Shown piece after piece: positions 1 to 10,182 of a DNA stretch of 10,182 nucleotides. Source of the DNA: an uncultured Methanosarcinales archaeon (lineage in GTDB: Archaea; Halobacteriota; Methanosarcinia; Methanotrichales; Methanotrichaceae). A program made the translations under genes and the position numbers. The notes beneath the pieces were generated by a model. That model was not told where the DNA came from, made no database searches, and was given only the letters and a program-made list of their open reading frames with translations. Position 1 is the stretch's first letter. Each line of letters starts with the position of its first letter. Location of the stretch: NCBI GenBank assembly GCA_937864385.1, contig CALMJN010000392.1, positions 1-10,182 of the forward strand, read 5' to 3'.

Positions 1-244
1 GAGTCCGGTCGGAGGCAATTTCCAGGTGAACACCTACACCACGAACAACCAAGGCTCACCCACGGTGGCAGCGGGCCTCTCGGGCGAATTCGTCGTGGCC
101 TGGGGCGAGTGGCACTTCCTCGACGGCAGGCCCGGAGTGGCAGCCGAGCTTTTCGATGCGGCACTGGGCAGCCCCGGGCTCAGCGGGCCGGTCGCCCGGG
201 ACCGCCTTCTCGACTGGTGGGCCCAATCCCTGGAGCGGCTGGCC
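1..244. other. Foreign or chimeric segment at the contig end (two joined bacterial-like fragments)
   Basis: Bases 61-240 are about 73% G+C, whereas the DNA from about 360 on is nearer 50-55%. The frame is open from base 2, so the GTG at 26 is not a real start. Translation gives first a stretch of about 35 residues containing FQVNTYTTNNQGSPTVA and FVVAWG, which resembles the repeat unit of large secreted bacterial repeat proteins. After about base 100-112 it switches to an alanine/leucine-rich stretch (AELFDAALGSP, DRLLDWWAQSLERLA) that resembles a bacterial tetratricopeptide-type helical protein. At about 245 it switches again to genuine CobQ sequence. Neither upstream piece belongs to the CobQ family. 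I infer a misassembly or chimeric read at the contig end; a natural fusion is much less likely. Confidence 0.7.
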
Positions 245-928
245 CGGGTCAGATATGTCGGCCTCTCCGAAAATTTAGGCCATCCTGACGCGGTGATCAT
301 CCCCGGGACCAAGAACACCGTCTCCGATCTGCGGGAGATGCAGGAGAAGGGCATGGACCGACAGATCAAATCCCTGGAAAGCACCCCTATTCTGGGCATA
401 TGCGGAGGCTACCAGATGCTGGGCCGGGAGATCATAGATTGCGGCATTGAGGACACAGTTGGTGCAGTGCCTGCCCTGGGTTTGCTGGATGCGACAACCC
501 GCTTCGACCTTTATGAAAAGAAGACGGTGCAGGTGGAGAAGACGGTTACCGGGGGTGGTCCTATTCTGGAGCCCATACGGGGGGAGAAGGTCAAGGGCTA
601 CGAGATTCATATGGGCCTTACCCGCCCCGCCGAAGAGGGCGCCTTCGAGGACGATGGGGCGGTCTCAAGCAGCGGAATTGTGATCGGCACCTACCTGCAC
701 GGCCTCTTCGATAACGAAAACTTCCGGGCAGCATTTCTCGATTTTCTTCGCCGCGGCAAGAGAGCGGGCAGTGAAATAAATGAACCCTGCCGGAGGGGGG
801 AAGATGAATGCGAGAGAGGAGTTGGAGAAGGATATGCCCTGGAATCGGACGGCTTTTCCCAGCTGGCAAGGGCAACTGCAGATCATCTGGATATGAAGAA
901 GATCTATCAAATGCTGGATCTGGATTGA
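26..928 (+). CDS. cobQ: Cobyric acid synthase, C-terminal glutaminase half only (5' end replaced by unrelated sequence)
   Basis: CobQ (CbiP) amidates side chains b, d, e and g of adenosylcobyrinic acid a,c-diamide using glutamine and ATP, in the cytoplasmic corrinoid pathway that methanogens need for methyltransferases. Counting from the GTG at 26, CobQ-like sequence begins at about residue 74 (VRYV) and runs to 300. Visible marks are PGTKNT (94-98), the nucleophile elbow GICGGYQMLG with Cys126, the family motif GYEIHMG (191-197), and GTYLHGLFDN with catalytic His225. The C-terminal helix ending DMKKIYQMLDLD is typical. Full CobQ is about 480-500 residues; the whole N-terminal dethiobiotin-synthetase-like ATPase domain (about 230-250 residues) is absent and the preceding 73 residues are unrelated. 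The true coding part is therefore about 245-928, partial at its 5' end. As it stands the product could not make cobyric acid. Confidence 0.85.
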   Translation: MNTYTTNNQGSPTVAAGLSGEFVVAWGEWHFLDGRPGVAAELFDAALGSPGLSGPVARDRLLDWWAQSLERLARVRYVGLSENLGHPDAVIIPGTKNTVSDLREMQEKGMDRQIKSLESTPILGICGGYQMLGREIIDCGIEDTVGAVPALGLLDATTRFDLYEKKTVQVEKTVTGGGPILEPIRGEKVKGYEIHMGLTRPAEEGAFEDDGAVSSSGIVIGTYLHGLFDNENFRAAFLDFLRRGKRAGSEINEPCRRGEDECERGVGEGYALESDGFSQLARATADHLDMKKIYQMLDLD

Positions 929-950
929 TCTGAAGACCGGGCCACAACAT

Positions 951-960
951 CTTTTTTATC
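951..960 (+). promoter_or_regulatory. Possible TATA box or T-rich terminator between cobQ and the Dph6 fusion
   Basis: CTTTTTTATC lies 24-33 bases before the ATG at 984. That is where an archaeal TATA box would sit for a leaderless or nearly leaderless transcript. The T6 run could equally act as a short archaeal terminator for cobQ. The two readings cannot be separated by eye. Confidence 0.35.
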
Positions 961-983
961 CCTGCTAACCTTCTTTAGGCAGG

Positions 984-2312
984 ATGAAACTCGGGGTTCT
1001 CTTTTCCGGGGGCAAGGACTCTGTCTTCGCCTGCCACCTGGCCAAGCAAAAAGATGAGGTCGCCTGCCTCATAACCATACGCTCTAACAATCCGGACAGC
1101 TACATGTTTCATACTCCGAACATCCGCTGCACGGACTTGCAGGCCAAGGCTATGAAAATTCCCATCCTCTCCTGGCCTACAGCGGGCCGGAAAGAAGAGG
1201 AGCTATATGATCTGGCGGCAGCCATATCCGCCGCTAGGGAGAGATACGGAGTCGAGGGAATAGTCACAGGGGCCATAGAGTCGGTCTACCAGGCATCCCG
1301 GGTGCAGAGGATCTGCCGCGACCTGGAACTATGGTGCTGCTCACCAATCTGGCAGGCCAATCAGATCGATTATCTCCGTCTTCTTCTCCGGGAAGGCTTT
1401 TCCGTCATAATCTCCGGGGTCTATGCCTATCCCTTTGATGCCTCCTGGCTGGGCCAGACTCTAAACGAGGAGCGCATCAGGATCCTGCAGTCTCTTCAGA
1501 GGAGATATAAGATCAATCCCTCCGGGGAAGGGGGAGAGCTGGAGACCCTGGTGGTCGACGGCCCCATCTTTTACCAGCGGATAGAGATCCTGGAGGCCTC
1601 TCAGGTCTATGCCCACCATCGGGGTCAGTTCATCATAGAAAAAGCCCGCCTGGCGGAAAAGAGGGGGCGGCAAGAAAATCCTGAGCCCTGCCATCCGCCT
1701 GCAGGCCACCATTGCCTCCTGCAAGCCTCAGAACGGGCAGAGAAAGGCAGCAGCAAGATTCTATTGGTCGATCTCTGCGCTCTGCCAAACAGCCTATTTG
1801 AATGCGAGTTCGTTTATCCCATCAGAGCAGCTCTTAAAGAATATGGATACCGCTCAGATATCCTGCACTATTCCATGCTCTCGCCCCGGGCCATCGATTC
1901 TTATGAAAAGATCATCCTCTGCGGAACCCCTCTCAAGGACGACGGCTATCTCTGCCATTTAGATCATCTTTCCTGGATCAGAGACTGTAGAAAGCCTCTG
2001 ATGGGAATCTGCGCCGGCATGCAGGCTATTTCCGCCCTCTATGGTGGCTGCATCCTCCCCTGTCCTGCTATAGGCCTGACGGAGATAGAGATCCAAAGGG
2101 AGAGCCTTCTCCTGGGAGAGCCCCGGTCCCTGGAGGTCTTCGAGCTTCATAATCATGCTGCCACTCTTCCTGAGGGATTCTCTCTTATTGCCGGCAGTAA
2201 TGATGCCGCTCTGGCCTTTCAGCACCCATCTCTTCCCACCTTCGGCCTATTATTTCATCCTGAGGTTAGATGTCGCTGGATACTGGAGCGCTTTGCAAAG
2301 CTCCCCGCATAG
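984..2312 (+). CDS. Diphthine-ammonia ligase (Dph6-type) fused to a class I glutamine amidotransferase domain
   Basis: Residues 1 to about 225 form a PP-loop ATPase of the Dph6 family, which activates diphthine on elongation factor 2 with ATP and amidates it to diphthamide. Visible marks are the PP-loop SGGKDS (8-13), GAIESVYQASRVQR (97-109) and the Dph6 signature GEGGELETLVVDGP (181-194). After a poorly conserved linker (about 226-256), residues 257-442 form a complete class I glutaminase domain: the elbow GICAGMQ with Cys343, and FHPEV with His425 and Glu427, giving the full Cys-His-Glu triad. ELHNHAATLPEGF (387-399) is also typical of GuaA-like glutaminases. Known Dph6 enzymes use free ammonium, so I infer that this domain makes ammonia from glutamine for the ligase. 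An in-frame TAA at 966 makes ATG 984 the first possible start; there is no clear ribosome binding site. Domain assignments are firm; the coupled reaction is inference. Confidence 0.88.
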   Translation: MKLGVLFSGGKDSVFACHLAKQKDEVACLITIRSNNPDSYMFHTPNIRCTDLQAKAMKIPILSWPTAGRKEEELYDLAAAISAARERYGVEGIVTGAIESVYQASRVQRICRDLELWCCSPIWQANQIDYLRLLLREGFSVIISGVYAYPFDASWLGQTLNEERIRILQSLQRRYKINPSGEGGELETLVVDGPIFYQRIEILEASQVYAHHRGQFIIEKARLAEKRGRQENPEPCHPPAGHHCLLQASERAEKGSSKILLVDLCALPNSLFECEFVYPIRAALKEYGYRSDILHYSMLSPRAIDSYEKIILCGTPLKDDGYLCHLDHLSWIRDCRKPLMGICAGMQAISALYGGCILPCPAIGLTEIEIQRESLLLGEPRSLEVFELHNHAATLPEGFSLIAGSNDAALAFQHPSLPTFGLLFHPEVRCRWILERFAKLPA

Positions 2313-2368
2313 ATTCTCCTCTTTGGGCAGGAATCTATACTGCCGGAAGAGAGATTCCTACGAAACCG

Positions 2369-2377
2369 ATTTATGTA
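2369..2377 (+). promoter_or_regulatory. Probable TATA box of the aksA-like gene
   Basis: ATTTATGTA lies 25-33 bases before the ATG at 2402, and the bases just before that ATG hold no Shine-Dalgarno-like sequence. Both facts fit a leaderless archaeal transcript starting at or near the ATG. The 89-base spacer also suggests separate transcription from the Dph6 fusion. Confidence 0.45.
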
Positions 2378-2401
2378 ATGAATCCTCACAATTAGAATGC
2401 T

Positions 2402-3586
2402 ATGCCTGACTACTCCCTCAATCAGTTCCTGGCCTCGGCCGGGACGCCTCCCCTGGACATTGAGATCTGCGATGTAACCCTTCGTGATGGCGAGCAGATG
2501 CCGGGAGTGGTCTTCAGGGCGGACGAGAAGCTGGATATCGCCTTGCGACTGGATGAGATCGGAGTAGAGGTCATAGAGGCCGGCTTTCCCGTGGTCTCCC
2601 CGGCGGAGATGAATGCAGTGCGGGAGGTCTGCAATCTGGGTCTGGATGCCAAGATCTCAGCTCTCTCCCGTTCGGTCAAGAAGGATGTCGATGCTGCTCT
2701 GCAATGCGGCGTGGATATGATCAGCGTATTTATTGCCACCTCCGATCTTCATTTAAAGCATAAGCTGCATATGAGCTGTCCCGAGGCCATATCCTGCGCC
2801 CTGCAGACGGTGGAGTATGCCAAGGATCACGGCCTGATTGTGCGCTTCTCAGCCGAGGATGCAACACGCACCGATTTTGAGATCCTGAAAAAGCTGTATA
2901 AGAAGGCAGAGGAGTATCATGCCGATTACATCAGCGTGGCCGACACCGTGGGCATCATGAACCCACGCACGACTTATTACATGATCAGCGAGCTGAAGAA
3001 AGCGGTCAAGATTCCCATATGCATGCACTGCCACGATGATCTGGGAATGGCTCTGGCCAATACCCTGGCCGGTGCCGAGGCCGGGGCCAAGCAGCTGCAT
3101 ACCACGGTCAACGGCATAGGCGAGCGCAGTGGAAATACGCCACTGGAGGAGCTGCTGGTAGCCTTAAGTATTCATTACGGCCTGGAGAGATATGATCTGA
3201 CCAAGATAAAGGATCTCTCCAAGCTGGTGGAGACCTACTCTGCCGTTCCCGTGGCCAGGAATAAGGCGGTGGTGGGGAGCAATGCCTTTGCCCACGAGTC
3301 GGGAATTCACGTAGCAGCCGTGCTGGAGGAGCCCAGAACCTATGAGCTGTATTCCCCGGAGATGGTGGGCGCGGCCAGGCACATCATCATTGGAAAGCAC
3401 ACCGGATCCAAGGCTCTCAAGTACATCACCCAGAGGATGGGCTATTATTTGAAGGACGAGGAGCTGGTGGACCTCTCCGAGAGGGTGAAGATGTGCAGCG
3501 AGTTCAAGCATGCTATAAACTGCGAGGAGCTGCGAAAGCTGATCCTCAACATGGAGAATATCGAGGTTATTTATCCCGGGCCTTGA
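2402..3586 (+). CDS. aksA: Homocitrate synthase of the isopropylmalate synthase family, probably AksA
   Basis: AksA condenses acetyl-CoA with 2-oxoglutarate and then with the longer 2-oxoacids, starting the chain-elongation route to 2-oxosuberate for coenzyme B. The TIM barrel is complete: DVTLRDGEQ (24-32, with Arg28 and metal ligand Asp24), EAGFP (59-63), FSAEDATRTD (149-158), HCHDD with metal ligands His209 and His211, and VNGIGERSGN (236-245). HESGIH (298-303) and GKHTGSKAL (331-339) mark the C-terminal communication subdomain. At 394 residues it lacks the leucine-sensing regulatory domain of LeuA (about 500 residues) and CimA, and is close to AksA length (about 400). NifV, the nitrogenase homocitrate synthase, has the same architecture and cannot be excluded, but no nif gene is nearby. 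The family is certain; the exact substrate is inferred. Confidence 0.85.
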   Translation: MPDYSLNQFLASAGTPPLDIEICDVTLRDGEQMPGVVFRADEKLDIALRLDEIGVEVIEAGFPVVSPAEMNAVREVCNLGLDAKISALSRSVKKDVDAALQCGVDMISVFIATSDLHLKHKLHMSCPEAISCALQTVEYAKDHGLIVRFSAEDATRTDFEILKKLYKKAEEYHADYISVADTVGIMNPRTTYYMISELKKAVKIPICMHCHDDLGMALANTLAGAEAGAKQLHTTVNGIGERSGNTPLEELLVALSIHYGLERYDLTKIKDLSKLVETYSAVPVARNKAVVGSNAFAHESGIHVAAVLEEPRTYELYSPEMVGAARHIIIGKHTGSKALKYITQRMGYYLKDEELVDLSERVKMCSEFKHAINCEELRKLILNMENIEVIYPGP

Positions 3587-3616
3587 TATATTTCGATTGA
3601 AAAAATGCTGATTGCC

Positions 3617-3656
3617 GGTTTGAGATTGTAGCGATGAAAGCGGCTATCTTCAAACC
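3617..3656 (-). terminator. Stem-loop between convergent genes, with U6 on the minus strand
   Basis: GGTTTGA (3617-3623) pairs with TCAAACC (3650-3656), and an inner GAT/ATC plus TAGC/GCTA extend the stem with small bulges. Read on the minus strand, the stem-loop is followed 11 bases later by TTTTTT (3605-3600). It is therefore placed to end the metallo-beta-lactamase transcript. It may also stop aksA read-through, although the plus side carries only TTTT. Confidence 0.6.
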
Positions 3657-3701
3657 ACTATTTTGCAGCAACTTCTTGCCGCAGAGCCCTTGTAGCAAAG
3701 C

Positions 3702-4445
3702 CTATAATGATAAGGTCATCAAATCCCAGCCGACGATGGCCGGGACCCCGGAAAGCTCAATGACCTGCTCCGCCATCTGATCCTCGCATCCGGCTGCCTG
3801 GGGGTAGAGATGGGTGAGGGCCACCCTCTTTATCCCGCAACCTCTGATCATGCTTCCCAATTTTTTAGGCGTGCTGTGATTGGTGACATCAAAGGGCTCG
3901 GGAAATGAACACTCATGCACCAGAAGATCGGCATCCTTGGCCAGGGCGGCAATCCGCGGGGAAGGCTCGGTGTCTCCGGAGTAGACCACCACCCGATCCT
4001 CCGCCTCCAGCCGGAAGGCCAGAGAGGGCAGGCTGTGCAGGGCCTCCTCGGCGAAGATATCAAAGTTCTTCAGGCTGAATGAGTCCATTGGATACAGTTC
4101 CCTAACCGCCACATCCATCTCCCATAAATTGGGGTAGAGCCGCCTGGCCGACTGGATGTAATCCTCTGTTCCCTCCGGGCCGAATACCTCCAGGCCGGGC
4201 ATATCAGCCAGATAGCGGGCGTTGGCCAGGGCCATCAGATCTGAGACATGATCCAGATGAAGATGGCTGAGCAATACTGTGTCTATGGCCTCTATACTGG
4301 CTCCGATCTGATCCAGCCGCAGAAGGGTGCCTGCCCCGCAGTCCAGGAGAAGCTGCTCTTCGGACTCCACCAGGATCGCCGCCTGGGAGCGGCCGGGCTG
4401 GGGTATGCCCGCCCCGGTTCCCAGCAATGTGACCTTCAGGCTCAT
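3702..4445 (-). CDS. Metallo-beta-lactamase-fold hydrolase, RNase Z-like
   Basis: This 247-residue protein has the complete zinc-site set of the RNase Z/arylsulfatase/phosphodiesterase branch: LLGTGAG (7-13) at the start, HLHLDH (61-66), His137, SGDTE with Asp158, HECS (177-180), NHST with His190, and THLYP with His212. These residues normally bind two zinc ions for phosphodiester or ester cleavage. True RNase Z (about 300 residues) carries an exosite arm that binds tRNA; between residues 140 and 190 I see no room for a long arm, so tRNA 3' processing is not assured. It may instead be a small-molecule or cyclic phosphate diesterase. The ATG at 4445 follows a weak AGAGG with only 3 bases spacing. 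It is convergent with aksA and not obviously in an operon. Confidence 0.85.
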   Translation of the reverse strand: MSLKVTLLGTGAGIPQPGRSQAAILVESEEQLLLDCGAGTLLRLDQIGASIEAIDTVLLSHLHLDHVSDLMALANARYLADMPGLEVFGPEGTEDYIQSARRLYPNLWEMDVAVRELYPMDSFSLKNFDIFAEEALHSLPSLAFRLEAEDRVVVYSGDTEPSPRIAALAKDADLLVHECSFPEPFDVTNHSTPKKLGSMIRGCGIKRVALTHLYPQAAGCEDQMAEQVIELSGVPAIVGWDLMTLSL

Positions 4446-4447
4446 GC

Positions 4448-4463
4448 GCCTCTTCTAAGAGGC
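4448..4463. repeat. Short perfect inverted repeat directly before the metallo-beta-lactamase start
   Basis: GCCTCTT and AAGAGGC (7-bp arms, 2-base centre) end two bases before the ATG of the minus-strand gene. On the minus strand the right-hand arm contains the only Shine-Dalgarno-like AAGAGG, so a hairpin or a bound protein could cover it. The loop is very short for RNA, so a DNA operator is equally possible. Confidence 0.4.
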
Positions 4464-4468
4464 CAATG

Positions 4469-4478
4469 GTAAATAACG
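4469..4478 (-). promoter_or_regulatory. Possible TATA box of the metallo-beta-lactamase gene
   Basis: Read on the minus strand, GTTATTTACC lies about 24-33 bases before the ATG at 4445. This spacing would give a very short or absent leader. Confidence 0.3.
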
Positions 4479-4605
4479 GTATCCTTCAATTGCTTTGAAT
4501 GATGTCTGAAGGCTAAAGAAGGGATGAAAAGGCGGGAGGTGCAACTCTGCTATGCCCAATTGTCCCCAGCCGGTTGCCTTAAAATCAGGCCATACCTCGC
4601 GCTAC

Positions 4606-5331
4606 TCACTCCTTTTTCATCCCTGCGCCTGGATTATATCGCAGCCCGCTTGCCTCGATGATCCTGTCAGCCAGTCTCGAAAGGGGCAGGCTCTGCAAAT
4701 AGACCCGCCCCGGCCCCTTTAATCGGGCCAGGAAGATGCCCTCTCCTCCCAGGAGGGCATTCTTGAAGCCGCCTAAAAATTGTATATCATAGTCCACGCT
4801 GCCGGAAAAAGCGGCCAGGCAGCCGGTATCCACTGCCAGAGCCTCTCCTGCCAGAAGTTCCCTCTCCAGAATGGTACCCCCGGCATGGATGAAGGCCATG
4901 CCGTCTCCCTCCAGCCTCTGCAGTATGAAGCCCTCTCCTCCGAAGAGCCCTGCCCCGAGCTTCTTTGTAAAGGCCACCTCGATCTCTATGCCCCGGGCGG
5001 CGCAGAGGAAGGAGTCCTTCTGGCAGATGATCTTGCCGCCGAATTGGGATAGGTCCAGAGCCAGGATCTTTCCCGGATATGGCGCAGCAAAGGCCAGCCT
5101 CTTCTTCTCCTTGGCCTGATTGAGAAAGGTGGTGATAAAGAAGCTCTCCCCAGCCACCATCCTCTTGAAGCCCTTGAACAGGCCGCCCCCGGTGGAGGTC
5201 TGCATCTCAATTCCCTGATCCATGTAGAGCATGGCCCCGGCCTCGGCCCGGACTGCTTCTCCGCCGTCGAGCTCAATCTCCACCGCCTGCATATCATCTC
5301 CGATTATGTTGTAGTCTATTGCATCAGTCAA
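4606..5331 (-). CDS. AIM24/TIGR00266-family protein
   Basis: The protein resembles the TIGR00266 (AIM24-like) family of widespread, cofactor-free beta-barrel proteins whose molecular role is unsettled; the yeast homologue AIM24 is mitochondrial. Visible marks are IDYNIIGDDMQAVEIEL (5-21), the family-typical AEAGAMLYM (29-37), GGGLFKGFKRMVAGESFF (48-65), GAGLFGGEGFILQRLEGDG (126-144), and a near-repeat GGEGIFLARLKGPG (195-208) reflecting the internal duplication of the fold. No signal peptide or membrane segment is evident. I prefer the TTG at 5331 (241 residues): GGAGTGAT lies four bases upstream, and the TATA box at 5364-5379 would place transcription start at about 5344. An upstream TTG at 5361 would add ten residues but lies too close to that TATA box. 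No operon partner is apparent. Confidence 0.82.
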   Translation of the reverse strand: MTDAIDYNIIGDDMQAVEIELDGGEAVRAEAGAMLYMDQGIEMQTSTGGGLFKGFKRMVAGESFFITTFLNQAKEKKRLAFAAPYPGKILALDLSQFGGKIICQKDSFLCAARGIEIEVAFTKKLGAGLFGGEGFILQRLEGDGMAFIHAGGTILERELLAGEALAVDTGCLAAFSGSVDYDIQFLGGFKNALLGGEGIFLARLKGPGRVYLQSLPLSRLADRIIEASGLRYNPGAGMKKE

Positions 5332-5335
5332 GCAG

Positions 5336-5343
5336 ATCACTCC
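5336..5343 (-). promoter_or_regulatory. Ribosome binding site that decides the AIM24-family start
   Basis: Read on the minus strand, GGAGTGAT matches the archaeal anti-Shine-Dalgarno complement GGAGGTGAT with one base missing, four bases before the TTG at 5331. It lies inside the coding sequence if the TTG at 5361 is used, which argues for the shorter protein. Confidence 0.55.
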
Positions 5344-5363
5344 GAGGAGATCTCTGTTCAATC

Positions 5364-5379
5364 ACATATAAAATTTTAT
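5364..5379. promoter_or_regulatory. Symmetric TATA element in the divergent spacer
   Basis: ATAAAATTTTAT (5368-5379) is a perfect 12-bp palindrome in a G+C-rich surrounding. On the minus strand it gives TTTTATATGTG about 26 bases before a predicted start near 5344, which fits the AIM24-family gene. On the plus strand it is too far (about 90 bases) from the 5470 start to be that gene's only promoter. Confidence 0.55.
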
Positions 5380-5437
5380 GGAGGATAATAGTGGCGTAGG
5401 TAGGCGGAAAAGGCAGGCCGATCCGGCATGGGTCAAG

Positions 5438-5446
5438 GATAAATAG
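5438..5446 (+). promoter_or_regulatory. Possible TATA box of the 81-residue protein gene
   Basis: GATAAATAG lies 24-32 bases before the ATG at 5470, the position expected for a leaderless archaeal transcript. No good Shine-Dalgarno sequence precedes that ATG. Confidence 0.35.
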
Positions 5447-5469
5447 CCTCTCTCTAAAACGGCAGAGAT

Positions 5470-5715
5470 ATGCATAGGCAGATAGAAGATGCTCTAGCCA
5501 ATCTGAATTCCTCTCCCCCACAAAAGCAGGAAAAGATCAAAGCCATTCTCTTCCGATATGCCCAGGGGGAGATGGGCCTGGATCAGGCCTACTATGAGCT
5601 CCTGGATGATGATCTGATTGCAATGCCACAGAGGTGCGCCGTCTTCGCCAAGGTCCCCCTGAACGAAGAGGATGAACTCAGGCTGAAAGAGAAGATCAGA
5701 GGCCTGATATCTTAA
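5470..5715 (+). CDS. Small protein of unknown function (81 residues)
   Basis: I do not recognise this protein. It is charged and predominantly helix-forming: an N-terminal helix (MHRQIEDALANL), a proline break (SSPPQKQ), a second helix through KIKAILFRYAQGEMGLDQAYYELLDDD, a short hydrophobic stretch (CAVFAKVPL, 56-64) and a final charged helix (EEDELRLKEKIRGLIS). It has no cysteine pairs, zinc motif, signal peptide or membrane segment. An in-frame TAA at 5455 leaves the ATG at 5470 as the first possible start. It is divergent from the AIM24-family gene and convergent with glmS. Its codon use looks like its neighbours, so it is probably native and translated. The compact helical, acidic character would suit a protein-binding partner, but that is speculation. 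Confidence 0.65.
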   Translation: MHRQIEDALANLNSSPPQKQEKIKAILFRYAQGEMGLDQAYYELLDDDLIAMPQRCAVFAKVPLNEEDELRLKEKIRGLIS

Positions 5716-5722
5716 AAAATAG

Positions 5723-5753
5723 ATGATGTGGTCGAGGCTTTGAGCCTCATCAT
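5723..5753 (-). terminator. Terminator stem-loop of the glmU-glmS operon
   Basis: GAGGCT (5734-5739) and AGCCTC (5743-5748) form a perfect 6-bp stem with loop TTG, and ATGAT (5723-5727) can pair with ATCAT (5749-5753) across a bulge. On the minus strand the stem-loop is followed by TTTTTT (5719-5714), giving a bacterial-style stem plus U-tract. It lies just after the glmS stop and just after the stop of the convergent 81-residue gene. Confidence 0.65.
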
Positions 5754-5761
5754 GACTTCGC

Positions 5762-7567
5762 TCATTCCACAGTCACGCACTTGGCCAGGTTTCTGGGCTT
5801 GTCTATGGGCAGGCCGAGCTTGTTGGCGGTATAATAGGCCAGAAGCTGCACCGCCACGGTGCAGAGCACTGCAGAGTATATCGGCCTTGTACCGGGAAGC
5901 TCGATAATCCGGCTGGCCACCTTGGCTATATCCGGATCCCCTTCCGTGGCCAGGGCCACCACATCAGCTCCCCTGGCCCGGACCTCCTTGATGTTGGACT
6001 GGATCTTCCTGCCGCAGGTGGCCAGGGCCACCACCGGCGTTTTCTCCGTGATCAGAGCCAGTGGTCCGTGCTTCAACTCTCCTCCGGCATAGCCTTCAGA
6101 TGGAATGTAGGCGATCTCCTTCATCTTCAGGGCTCCTTCCAGGGATATTGGATAAAGATAATCCCTGCCGATGAAGAAGTAGCATCCGGCGTGGGCATAG
6201 CTCTCAGCTATCTTTCTGATCTCCTCCCTCTTCTCCAGCACCCTCTGCACCAGGCCGGGCAGCTTGGTCAGCTCTATGAGCATCTTCCTGGCCTGATCGG
6301 GGGTGAGGTGCTCGCGGGCCCGCCCCAGTTTGATGGCCAGGAGGATGATAGCCACAAGCTGCGAGGTGAATGTCTTGGTGGCGGCAACACCGATCTCCGG
6401 GCCGCAGCGGGTGTAGATGGTCCCGTCTACAAGGCCGGTCACAGTGGAGCCCACCACATTGGTTATGGCCAGGCTCCGCCCGCCGCAGGTCTTGGCCTTT
6501 TTCAGAGCCAGCAGTGTGTCTGCTGTCTCCCCGGACTGGGTGATGCCCAGCAGGAGAGTCCTAGGCCGGATCTGGAGGTTGATGAATTCAGATGCCACCT
6601 CTACATCCACGGGCAGGCCTGCCGCCCGGGCGAAGAGGTTTTTGGCCAGCATCCCGGCATGGTAAGATGTGCCGCAGGCGATGATGGAAACCCTCTCCAG
6701 CCCCCTGATCTCCTCATCGCTCATTCCCAGATCCAGCCTCACCTCCCCATCGATCTCTGAGATTCGGCCGGCTATGGTTTCCCGGATGGCCCGAGGCTGC
6801 TCATGGATCTCCTTGAGCATGAAATGAGTGTAGCCGCCTTTCTCCGCTGCGTCCGCATCCCAGGTGATGCGCTCGATCTCTACGGCGCGGGGCATTCCTC
6901 CCGCATCCAGCATCTCCACCCGGTCGGCATAAACCCGGGCGATCTCCCCATCCTTCATGCGGATCACATCCCTGGTATAAGGAAGGAGGGCTGGAACATC
7001 AGAGGCTAAATAAAATGCGCTCTTGCCCTGGCCCAGCACCAGGGGGCTATCCTTCCTGGCACAAACCAGATAGGGCGAGCTGGCGGCCAGAACGGCCAGG
7101 GCATAAGAGCCCTCCACATGCTCCAGAGCTTTGATTGTCGCTTCCAGAAGATCTTTTTTATAATAAAAATGAATGAGATGAGCCAGTACCTCGCTGTCCG
7201 TCTCGGAAGAGAATTGGTAGCCCATCTCCGTGAGATGGTCTCTCAGCTCCAGATAGTTCTCGATGATGCCGTTATGAACAATGGCGATCTCCCCGGAGGT
7301 ATGGGGGTGGGCATTGATATCGCTGGGCCGGCCATGAGTAGCCCAGCGGGTATGGCCTATGCCCATGCTCTCTCCCGGGCTGCCTCGCATCTGGTAGATC
7401 TTTTCCAGATCGGCTATGCGGCCCGCCGACTTCAATACCTCTATATTCCCGTCAGACTTGACTGCCACTCCCGCCGAGTCGTAGCCCCTGTACTCCAGCC
7501 GCTTCAGGGTGTCAAAGAGTATAGGCCCGGGCCGCTGATCGCCGATATAGGCCACAATTCCGCACAT
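5762..7567 (-). CDS. glmS: Glutamine-fructose-6-phosphate aminotransferase (isomerizing)
   Basis: GlmS makes glucosamine-6-phosphate and glutamate from fructose-6-phosphate and glutamine, the first committed step to UDP-GlcNAc. The 601 residues match the usual length (E. coli 609). The class II glutaminase domain starts MCGIVAYIGD with Cys2 as N-terminal nucleophile after Met removal, then HTRWATHG (72-79), HNGIIEN (98-104) and SETDSE (121-126). The first sugar isomerase domain has CGTSYHAG (298-305) and TQSGETADT (343-351), and ATKTFTSQ (396-403) follows. The second has EGALKMKEI (477-485) and EGYAGGELKHGP (491-502). The end DKPRNLAKCVTVE is the canonical tail that forms the sugar site and ammonia channel. 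Every key residue I checked is present. Its ATG overlaps the stop of the upstream GlmU-like gene (TGATG), implying one transcript and translational coupling. Confidence 0.97.
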   Translation of the reverse strand: MCGIVAYIGDQRPGPILFDTLKRLEYRGYDSAGVAVKSDGNIEVLKSAGRIADLEKIYQMRGSPGESMGIGHTRWATHGRPSDINAHPHTSGEIAIVHNGIIENYLELRDHLTEMGYQFSSETDSEVLAHLIHFYYKKDLLEATIKALEHVEGSYALAVLAASSPYLVCARKDSPLVLGQGKSAFYLASDVPALLPYTRDVIRMKDGEIARVYADRVEMLDAGGMPRAVEIERITWDADAAEKGGYTHFMLKEIHEQPRAIRETIAGRISEIDGEVRLDLGMSDEEIRGLERVSIIACGTSYHAGMLAKNLFARAAGLPVDVEVASEFINLQIRPRTLLLGITQSGETADTLLALKKAKTCGGRSLAITNVVGSTVTGLVDGTIYTRCGPEIGVAATKTFTSQLVAIILLAIKLGRAREHLTPDQARKMLIELTKLPGLVQRVLEKREEIRKIAESYAHAGCYFFIGRDYLYPISLEGALKMKEIAYIPSEGYAGGELKHGPLALITEKTPVVALATCGRKIQSNIKEVRARGADVVALATEGDPDIAKVASRIIELPGTRPIYSAVLCTVAVQLLAYYTANKLGLPIDKPRNLAKCVTVE

Positions 7568-8947: not shown

Positions 8948-10033
8948 ATGAGGATATTGGTGATTCCAACCACGGACTGGATCAGGCATCCCGTCCCCAA
9001 TAGGCTCAATTTCATCTTCGATACCCTGGCGGAAAAGCACGAGGTCTACGTCCTGCACTTCGGCCTGAAGAGGTTTTCAGGCCTCGAGCCGAGGCAGACC
9101 GGATGCACCCTCCTGCCGGCGGACTGGATCAGAGCTGAGGACCCCTCCTTATATTATATCCTTAACTTTCCCTATCACTTATGGAAGATCAGGCGAATTG
9201 CCAGCCGCCTGAAGATCGATGTCATCCTCTCCGCCAACATCCTGCCCTCCTTTGCCGCCAACTTTTCAGGCACGCCTGTGGTCTTCGATTATCTGGACCA
9301 TCTGGAGGAGTCGGCATCGGTCTATTATCCGGGATCGGCTTTGGGAGAGGTGGTCAAGCAGGTGGTAAGAAGAATAACCAGGTACAACCTCCGCCATGCC
9401 CGATCGGTGATCACCGTCACAAGAGAGCTGTCCGATTTCCTCTATGATCTGGGAGTCAAAGAGGTAACCGTAATCGCCAATGGCGTGGATACACAGGCTC
9501 TTCAGCCGCTGCCCAAGGAGGAGGCCAAGAGCAAGCTGGGCCTCTTGGGCCCGGTCTTGGGCTATGTGGGGTCGCTGGAGCACTGGGTGGACCTGGAGAG
9601 CGTGGTCTCAGCCCTGCCGAAAATCGATGCCACTTTGCTGGTGGTGGGGCCGGGTCTGTTCACCGATTATGGGGACAAGATAAAAAGAATGGCAGAAGAG
9701 CTGGGGGTAATGGACAGGGTTGTCTTTACCGGGGCGGTGAAGTATCAGGACCTGTCGCGATATATCTCCGCCATGGACATCGGCCTCAATCCCCTGAAGA
9801 TGATGAAGAAGAACGAGTATGCTGCCGGGGGCAAGGTCTTTAACTACCTATCCTGTGGCCGGCCGGTGCTCTCCAGCCGCATGGTCTCTCTGGAGAGGCT
9901 GCTGGGGGATGAGATATATTATTATGATGATGTGGAGAGCTTTGTCCGGCAGGTGAAGAGGATATTTAAAGCGCGAGATGGTGAGAGAAGATATAGATCT
10001 CTGGCTGAAAAATATGATTGGATTACCCGATAA
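8948..10033 (+). CDS. GT4-type (GT-B fold) glycosyltransferase
   Basis: The 361-residue protein has the two-domain layout of GT-B glycosyltransferases that move a sugar from a nucleotide donor onto a lipid carrier or growing glycan at the cytoplasmic membrane face. The N-terminal domain (1 to about 175) starts MRILVIP and has the hinge SVITVTREL followed by VIANGVDT (175-182). The C-terminal donor-binding domain has LGYVGSLEHWVDLES (204-218), LLVVGPG (230-236), RVVFTGAVKYQDLSRYISAMDIG (257-279) and GKVFNYLSCGRPVLSS (295-310). The usual acidic residue of the second motif (often FEY) appears as Asn in FNY. It stops at EKYDWITR, about 15 residues earlier than many relatives, which continue as a helix after YDW. 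The start ATG 8948 has GGAGG five bases upstream. It diverges from glmU-glmS, so a GlcNAc-type donor and a surface glycoprotein role are plausible but unproven. Confidence 0.88.
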   Translation: MRILVIPTTDWIRHPVPNRLNFIFDTLAEKHEVYVLHFGLKRFSGLEPRQTGCTLLPADWIRAEDPSLYYILNFPYHLWKIRRIASRLKIDVILSANILPSFAANFSGTPVVFDYLDHLEESASVYYPGSALGEVVKQVVRRITRYNLRHARSVITVTRELSDFLYDLGVKEVTVIANGVDTQALQPLPKEEAKSKLGLLGPVLGYVGSLEHWVDLESVVSALPKIDATLLVVGPGLFTDYGDKIKRMAEELGVMDRVVFTGAVKYQDLSRYISAMDIGLNPLKMMKKNEYAAGGKVFNYLSCGRPVLSSRMVSLERLLGDEIYYYDDVESFVRQVKRIFKARDGERRYRSLAEKYDWITR

Positions 10034-10051
10034 TTTTCATGGTGTAATCCA
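10019..10051 (+). terminator. Inverted repeat spanning the glycosyltransferase stop codon
   Basis: TGGATTAC (10019-10026) and GTAATCCA (10044-10051) are perfect 8-bp arms around a 17-base loop holding the stop codon TAA. It may be a stem-loop protecting or ending the transcript; no T-tract follows. Such a repeat could also mark the edge of a rearrangement. Confidence 0.35.
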
Positions 10052-10182
10052 GGATACAGCCTCTACAGCCACACTTACAGCTTTGTTAACGGCAAGAGAG
10101 AGACATACAAGGTACCAAATCAATGAACAGGGTTTTATGCACAACGATTTCCGGATATATTGTTCTACTGAAACCCATTCTT
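10034..10182. other. Tail without a convincing gene
   Basis: These 149 bases are more A+T-rich than the genes before them. An ATG at 10123 opens a frame running off the window end (MNRVLCTTISG...), and a minus-strand frame runs from the window end to a TGA at 10038-10040. Neither has a recognisable motif or a good ribosome binding site, so neither is called. I see no tRNA or other RNA gene here. Confidence 0.5.

Follow-up and report, generated by a model that had tools for sequence, protein, structure and literature searches.

Where does the nitrogen of archaeal diphthamide come from? The ligase of yeast, Dph6, is reported to use ammonium (PMC5354562), and the RidA and AsnB extensions found on other Dph6 proteins have so far only been proposed as donors. 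The question is raised anew by a gene on contig CALMJN010000392.1 of an uncultured Methanosarcinales archaeon of the family Methanotrichaceae (assembly GCA_937864385.1). The whole contig stretch of 10,182 nucleotides was analyzed and is called the window here. The gene joins a Dph6 domain to a class I glutamine amidotransferase (GAT) domain, and we consider it likely that its product is a glutamine-dependent diphthine-ammonia ligase in a single chain that follows the logic of GMP synthetase, with the catalysis and the ammonia channel being what we infer. The yeast study agrees with the statement of an earlier note on this DNA that characterized Dph6 works with free ammonium.

The fusion occupies a real open frame of 442 codons plus a stop, which begins with ATG and contains no internal stop codon. 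The gene and its parts are the following:

984..2312, plus strand: dph6-gat fusion gene (open reading frame, Pfam, recurrence)
984..1658, plus strand: Dph6 domain, residues 1-225, an N-type PP-loop ATP pyrophosphatase
1005..1022, plus strand: SGGKDS motif, residues 8-13, which we take to be the PP-loop signature (sequence)
1524..1544, plus strand: GEGGELE motif, residues 181-187 (alignment with PF0828)
1659..1751, plus strand: linker between the domains, residues 226-256 (model confidence is low around 231-250)
1752..2309, plus strand: class I GAT domain, residues 257-442
2010..2012, plus strand: codon of the presumed nucleophile Cys343, within GICAGM (sequence, column conservation)
2256..2264, plus strand: codons of His425, Pro426 and Glu427, within FHPEV (sequence, column conservation)

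The earlier note had claimed an unbroken frame with a full Dph6 half, a full GAT half and an intact triad, and the frame, the profile searches and the individual residues all confirm this. Pfam places Diphthami_syn_2 (PF01902) over residues 1-222 (E 9e-62, above the gathering score) and the class I GATase family (PF00117) over residues 273-430 (E 2.6e-17, 63.6 bits against a gathering score of 22.8). The NCBIfam equivalog model for archaeal Dph6 (TIGR03679, Dph6_archaeal) gives the protein 269.3 bits against a cut-off of 197.3, while Cys343, His425 and Glu427 complete the class I triad. Nine residues of the archaeal protein PF0828 have been named as conserved and located at a modelled interface with elongation factor 2 (EF-2) (PMC3541065). 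All nine are identical in the fusion (positions 39, 40, 73, 102, 103, 148, 182, 185 and 187), and the alignment pairs E182, E185 and E187 of the fusion with E183, E186 and E188 of PF0828. The AlphaFold model, computed from a joint alignment (A4) of 25 of 62 Dph6 rows and 40 of 65 GAT rows, reached a mean predicted local distance difference test (pLDDT) score of 94.0 and a predicted template modelling (pTM) score of 0.92, with pLDDT falling to 54-55 in linker residues 231-250. These scores imply a defined arrangement of the two domains.

Whether the fusion recurs or is an assembly error of a single contig was examined in 60 related genomes, 37 of them from the same family. It recurs: 13 of the 37 family genomes carry it, the window's own included, and the frame is uninterrupted in 12. 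The uninterrupted copies lie in 11 other assemblies, at 60-79% identity to the window protein, and one genome (G019) holds two fusions. The thirteenth genome (G017) carries a fusion about 90% identical to that of the window, whose frame is interrupted by the loss of about 23 bases relative to the window near position 1200, either a real lesion or an assembly fault. In a further 18 of the 37 family genomes the GAT is unfused and is simply the next gene after dph6. No Dph6 above the cut-off was found in two family assemblies, G001 and G010, which are 79% and 77% complete.

The same pairing extends well beyond the family. We searched with a profile of the GAT half built from a 27-row alignment (A1), so that both searches were blind to Dph6. 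Set A comprises the best 80 of 289 confirmed GAT relatives from a collection of 84,980 bacterial and archaeal species, each represented by a single genome; set B comprises all 73 carriers (hits of at least 85 bits) among 392 genomes of the phylum. The two sets overlap in genomes and are not independent. All 80 record titles in set A are archaeal, and by these titles the carriers belong to Methanotrichaceae, Methanomicrobiales, Methanofastidiosia, Undinarchaeales, Bathyarchaeota, Thermoplasmata, Woese-, Pace-, Aenigmat- and Nanohalarchaeota, in addition to unplaced archaea.

In set A, 77 of the 80 GATs are fused to dph6 or lie directly behind it: 13 share one frame with Dph6 (the family fusions again, including the broken copy), and 64 start no more than 150 nucleotides downstream on the same strand. 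Dph6 lies 2.5 and 3.4 kb upstream of the GAT in two more (L128, L130). In the last stretch (L093) tblastn found no Dph6 and detected only a GAT fragment from residue 318 onward. Set B gives the same picture, with 71 of 73 carriers fused or directly behind dph6 (one fused, 70 within 150 nucleotides) and two further away, at 163 and 1393 nucleotides. The next hits in set B score at most 76.5 bits and cover only match positions 17-182; they are probably GuaA-type paralogues, as checked for one of them. Of the 64 adjacent pairs in set A, 56 have their two domain matches separated by 5, 8 or 11 nucleotides, which means that dph6 and gat abut or overlap and suggests translational coupling. Dph2 was found in all eight distant GAT carriers tested. 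In the archaeal lineages where it was detected, the class I partner is thus a near-constant neighbor of Dph6, and almost every locus examined has its stand-alone homologue next to dph6. The prediction that stand-alone relatives of the GAT half partner Dph6 is borne out. Some of these partners lack the catalytic Cys and so are not always active glutaminases.

What such a pair may do is best read from GMP synthetase, which combines a class I GAT with an N-type PP-loop ATPase and proceeds through an adenylated intermediate. Both the archaeal enzyme made of GuaAa plus GuaAb and the one-chain GuaA consist of the same pair of domain kinds, and GMP synthetase subunit A is closest to the GAT half of the window protein in sequence and fold. 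By analogy, the C-terminal GAT would hydrolyze glutamine at Cys343 and the ammonia would pass to the N-terminal PP-loop domain, which would adenylate the diphthine carboxylate on EF-2, after which ammonia would displace AMP to yield diphthamide. The differences are that the domain order is reversed relative to GMP synthetase, that Dph6 takes the place of the synthetase half and that the substrate is a protein. According to PMC3585130, Dph6 is an N-type PP-loop ATPase that presumably adenylates diphthine. In most archaea found to carry this GAT, the same enzyme would exist as two subunits encoded by adjacent genes that are probably translationally coupled. In the 50-row alignment VIA-align, no GMP synthetase chain aligned over both halves, and it says nothing certain about the orientation of the domains.

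An origin in which GMP synthetase subunit A was recruited unchanged was rejected: the window protein reaches the cut-off of no GAT model in NCBIfam, it scores 58.0 bits with the GuaAa model (NF001975), its best GAT model, against a cut-off of 198, and the host has a true GuaAa elsewhere (G000:C408), which served as positive control at 255.2 bits. Four other partners (L017, L115, L122 and L164) score 37-77 bits with this model and fall below every NCBIfam cut-off, which leaves the GAT partner nameless in NCBIfam. To judge from sequence, the GAT half would work like GuaAa without being a member of the GuaAa family. Stand-alone archaeal Dph6 proteins such as PF0828 and PH1257 differ from the fusion in being chains without a GAT.

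Joining Dph6 to an ammonia source has precedents. The study that predicted Dph6 in 2012 also proposed that fused domains supply ammonia, and it described AsnB-DUF71 fusions, found in Methanohalophilus, Methanosalsum and Nanosalinarum, whose GAT is of class II (PMC3541065). These resemble the window protein in that Dph6 is joined to a glutaminase that could supply ammonia, but their GAT is N-terminal and accompanied by an extra PP-loop domain of the asparagine synthetase kind, whereas the GAT described here belongs to class I, sits at the C-terminus and is widespread, too, as a gene of its own next to dph6. The window protein has only PF01902 and PF00117 in Pfam, with no match to GATase_6/7 or Asn_synthase. 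Class II GATs act through an N-terminal nucleophile.

The AsnB arrangement is present in our own sample. Among five Methanosarcinaceae-type loci, an AsnB-type module is fused to Dph6 in two, matched directly upstream in two, and not found by tblastn in one (L040). Both long frames scanned (L039, L041) have the module confirmed by Pfam as GATase_6/7 plus Asn_synthase fused to Dph6. At L043 a tblastn match to AsnB lies directly upstream of an unfused dph6, and the same holds at L042 from query residue 83 on; judged by these matches, L043 and, in part, L042 carry an unfused version of the class II arrangement already published. In addition, Dph6 lies in open frames of 708-769 amino acids in 11 of the 21 genomes of this family (f3) among the 60 related genomes. 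A second precedent is eukaryotic Dph6, whose C-terminal RidA/YjgF extension has likewise been proposed as an ammonia supplier (PMC3541065, PMC3585130), although it is an unrelated domain with a different nitrogen source. This region is essential in yeast Dph6, and the human protein without it still complements (PMC3585130).

Several observations weigh against glutamine-dependent amidation as a general account. No GAT hit of at least 85 bits was found in 319 of the 392 sampled genomes, and stand-alone Dph6 is common. Within the family, one genome of the window's genus (G011) keeps the gene order cobQ-dph6-aksA without a GAT, and three others (G028, G034, G036) carry a divergent Dph6 (33-36% identity) that lies above the Dph6 cut-off with no GAT match beside it, perhaps a replacement. 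Above all, the nucleophile is not universal. The triad is complete in 31 of 32 family loci, in 71 of 80 loci of set A and in 52 of 73 of set B; set A is skewed toward complete triads because the scan patterns contain the Cys and His motifs, so set B is the fairer sample, and in it Cys is missing from 19 of the 73, His only from one, and one is incomplete. In a midpoint-rooted FastTree phylogeny of 137 Dph6-GAT pairs (186 loci minus 39 with identical Dph6, 8 with a short half and 2 with a half absent), Cys is absent from 27 sequences in three separate lineages, a distribution that needs three changes and makes glutaminase activity dispensable in places.

The largest of these lineages is a 21-member clade (support 1.0) in which Ser stands for Cys and His is kept in 20; some of its records are titled Methanoculleus. 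Its Methanoculleus-type loci, such as L099, L109, L122 and L157-L159, read GISSGM for GICAGM and retain HPEV; some records with this title fall outside the clade, such as L111, which has Cys. Five sequences from a single genus (g5; L144, L146, L148, L152 and L156) in the same family as the window form the second (support 1.0); they have Ser or Ala and have replaced His too, with the gene still beside dph6. The third is a single Methanomicrobiales sequence (L117) with Gly. An ammonia-rich habitat is not claimed here as the cause of the loss in Methanoculleus, since the titles of the relevant papers point both ways, one of them reporting abundant Methanosaeta at high ammonia.

We estimated the ratio of nonsynonymous to synonymous substitution rates (dN/dS) by a crude NG86 calculation restricted to close pairs, in the order Cys-less clade of 21, Cys-less clade of 5 and three Cys-bearing groups beginning with the fused group (150, 10, 30, 4 and 18 pairs). 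Median dN/dS for the GAT was 0.28, 0.24, 0.19, 0.19 and 0.19, and for Dph6 0.19, 0.09, 0.14, 0.16 and 0.13; the corresponding GAT:Dph6 ratios of protein divergence were 1.57, 2.10, 1.58, 1.34 and 1.36. These values indicate that purifying selection still maintains the Cys-less GATs. Only in the clade of 5 is their constraint clearly relaxed relative to that on Dph6, since in the Methanoculleus-type clade the dN/dS of Dph6 is raised as well.

A rival view is that the GAT half is mainly structural or regulatory, stabilizing Dph6, docking EF-2 or sensing glutamine as a nitrogen signal, with free ammonium as the donor everywhere. The retention of a Cys-less gene beside dph6 in three lineages, the GAT dN/dS of both Cys-less clades, the equal divergence ratios of the larger clade and the fused group (1.57 and 1.58) and the use of ammonium by characterized Dph6 (PMC5354562) all point this way. 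As a complete explanation we nevertheless regard it as unlikely, given the complete triads of most set B carriers and nearly all family loci, and given that the divergence of the GAT relative to Dph6 is higher in the smaller Cys-less clade than in any Cys-bearing group (2.10 against 1.34-1.58), as if a catalytic constraint had been lost, which is not clearly so in the larger clade. A structural role may exist in addition to catalysis, as the Cys-less GATs beside dph6 and their purifying selection in two clades suggest. Where the nucleophile was lost, Dph6 would presumably run on free ammonium and the GAT would stabilize or orient it. More tentatively, and with somewhat less than even confidence, we propose that the archaeal ligase is, in many lineages, a two-subunit enzyme whose GAT is also kept for a non-catalytic role, such as keeping Dph6 in place on EF-2 or signalling glutamine status to translation. 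Two clades or more, including a Methanoculleus-type one, could then have dropped the nucleophile, turned to free ammonium and kept a pseudo-glutaminase.

Two further explanations concern the locus itself. The protein could act in cobamide metabolism and amidate a corrinoid: cobQ is its direct upstream neighbor in the window and is found in 19 of the 35 set A loci of Methanotrichaceae type, and a subgroup of DUF71 for B12 salvage has been proposed (PMC3541065). We consider this very improbable. The protein scores above the cut-off of the Dph6 model and far below those of other DUF71 models (NF052346, 57.6 bits, and NF052347, 31.3 bits, against 250 each, models that may or may not represent the published B12 subgroup), it keeps all nine residues of the modelled EF-2 interface, and it is the sole PF01902 match in an assembly with Dph2 and Dph5. 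A B12 role argued from cobQ was rejected, since the linkage was seen only in Methanotrichaceae-type loci: aksA, also a neighbor in the window, occurs in 18 of the 35, and neither gene was found in the 45 set A loci outside this type (24 of them stretches shorter than 8 kb, 21 longer).

Alternatively, an assembly or frameshift artefact might have joined two ordinary adjacent genes. The contig ends seem chimeric and the fused clade lies among unfused pairs on the tree, but the uninterrupted fusions in 11 other assemblies exclude both chance and such an artefact, and the 13 fused sequences form a single clade (support 0.98) that requires one change, so that we assign this explanation a negligible probability. 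A glutamine-dependent one-chain ligase is the reading we retain, with the fusion having arisen once, within what is most likely Methanothrix.

The host assembly is 93% complete and includes Dph2, Dph5 and, as its only PF01902 protein, the fusion. At the left end of the contig (1-227), the first 224-229 bases cannot be aligned with three relatives that are collinear beyond, and the GC content of bases 1-200 is 0.69, compared with 0.48-0.63 elsewhere in the window; this end looks chimeric because the cobQ frame extends into the unalignable GC-rich stretch. At the right end (9978-10181), a fragment weakly similar to a pyridoxal-dependent decarboxylase (with an E value of 2.8e-05, slightly short of the gathering score) overlaps the end of a glycosyltransferase frame, possibly a second chimeric end. 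Positions 230-7567 hold two more proteins with GAT domains: one of the CobQ type with GATase_3, the other GlmS-like with GATase_6/7 plus SIS.

The earlier note knew of no description of this arrangement. That is too broad with respect to Dph6 and glutaminases in general, the class II combination with AsnB having been published in 2012 (PMC3541065), but it stands for the class I partner, of which we found no description in the literature searched, which included few subscription papers and no bioRxiv preprints. The main text of a survey of archaeal fusions (PMC11237513) contains no word beginning with diphth or Dph, and PMC3655853 notes Dph2 as well as a putative glutamine amidotransferase in a nanoarchaeon, neither tied to Dph6. 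Thus Dph6 with an attached ammonia source is known; what appears to be new within that literature is the class I partner, together with its distribution as a stand-alone gene and the repeated loss of its nucleophile.

Our findings suggest that the class I GAT is a second, unnamed subunit of diphthine-ammonia ligase. The dedicated glutaminase gene that follows dph6 in Methanotrichaceae, Methanomicrobiales and, judging by record titles, several other archaeal groups is a concrete candidate for this subunit, and next to RidA and AsnB it brings the number of different ammonia-supplying modules attached to this ligase to three. The natural Cys-less partners offer ready controls for separating glutaminase activity from the role of a physical subunit. 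If the proposal is true, the maturation of a translation factor would be tied to the supply of glutamine in these archaea.
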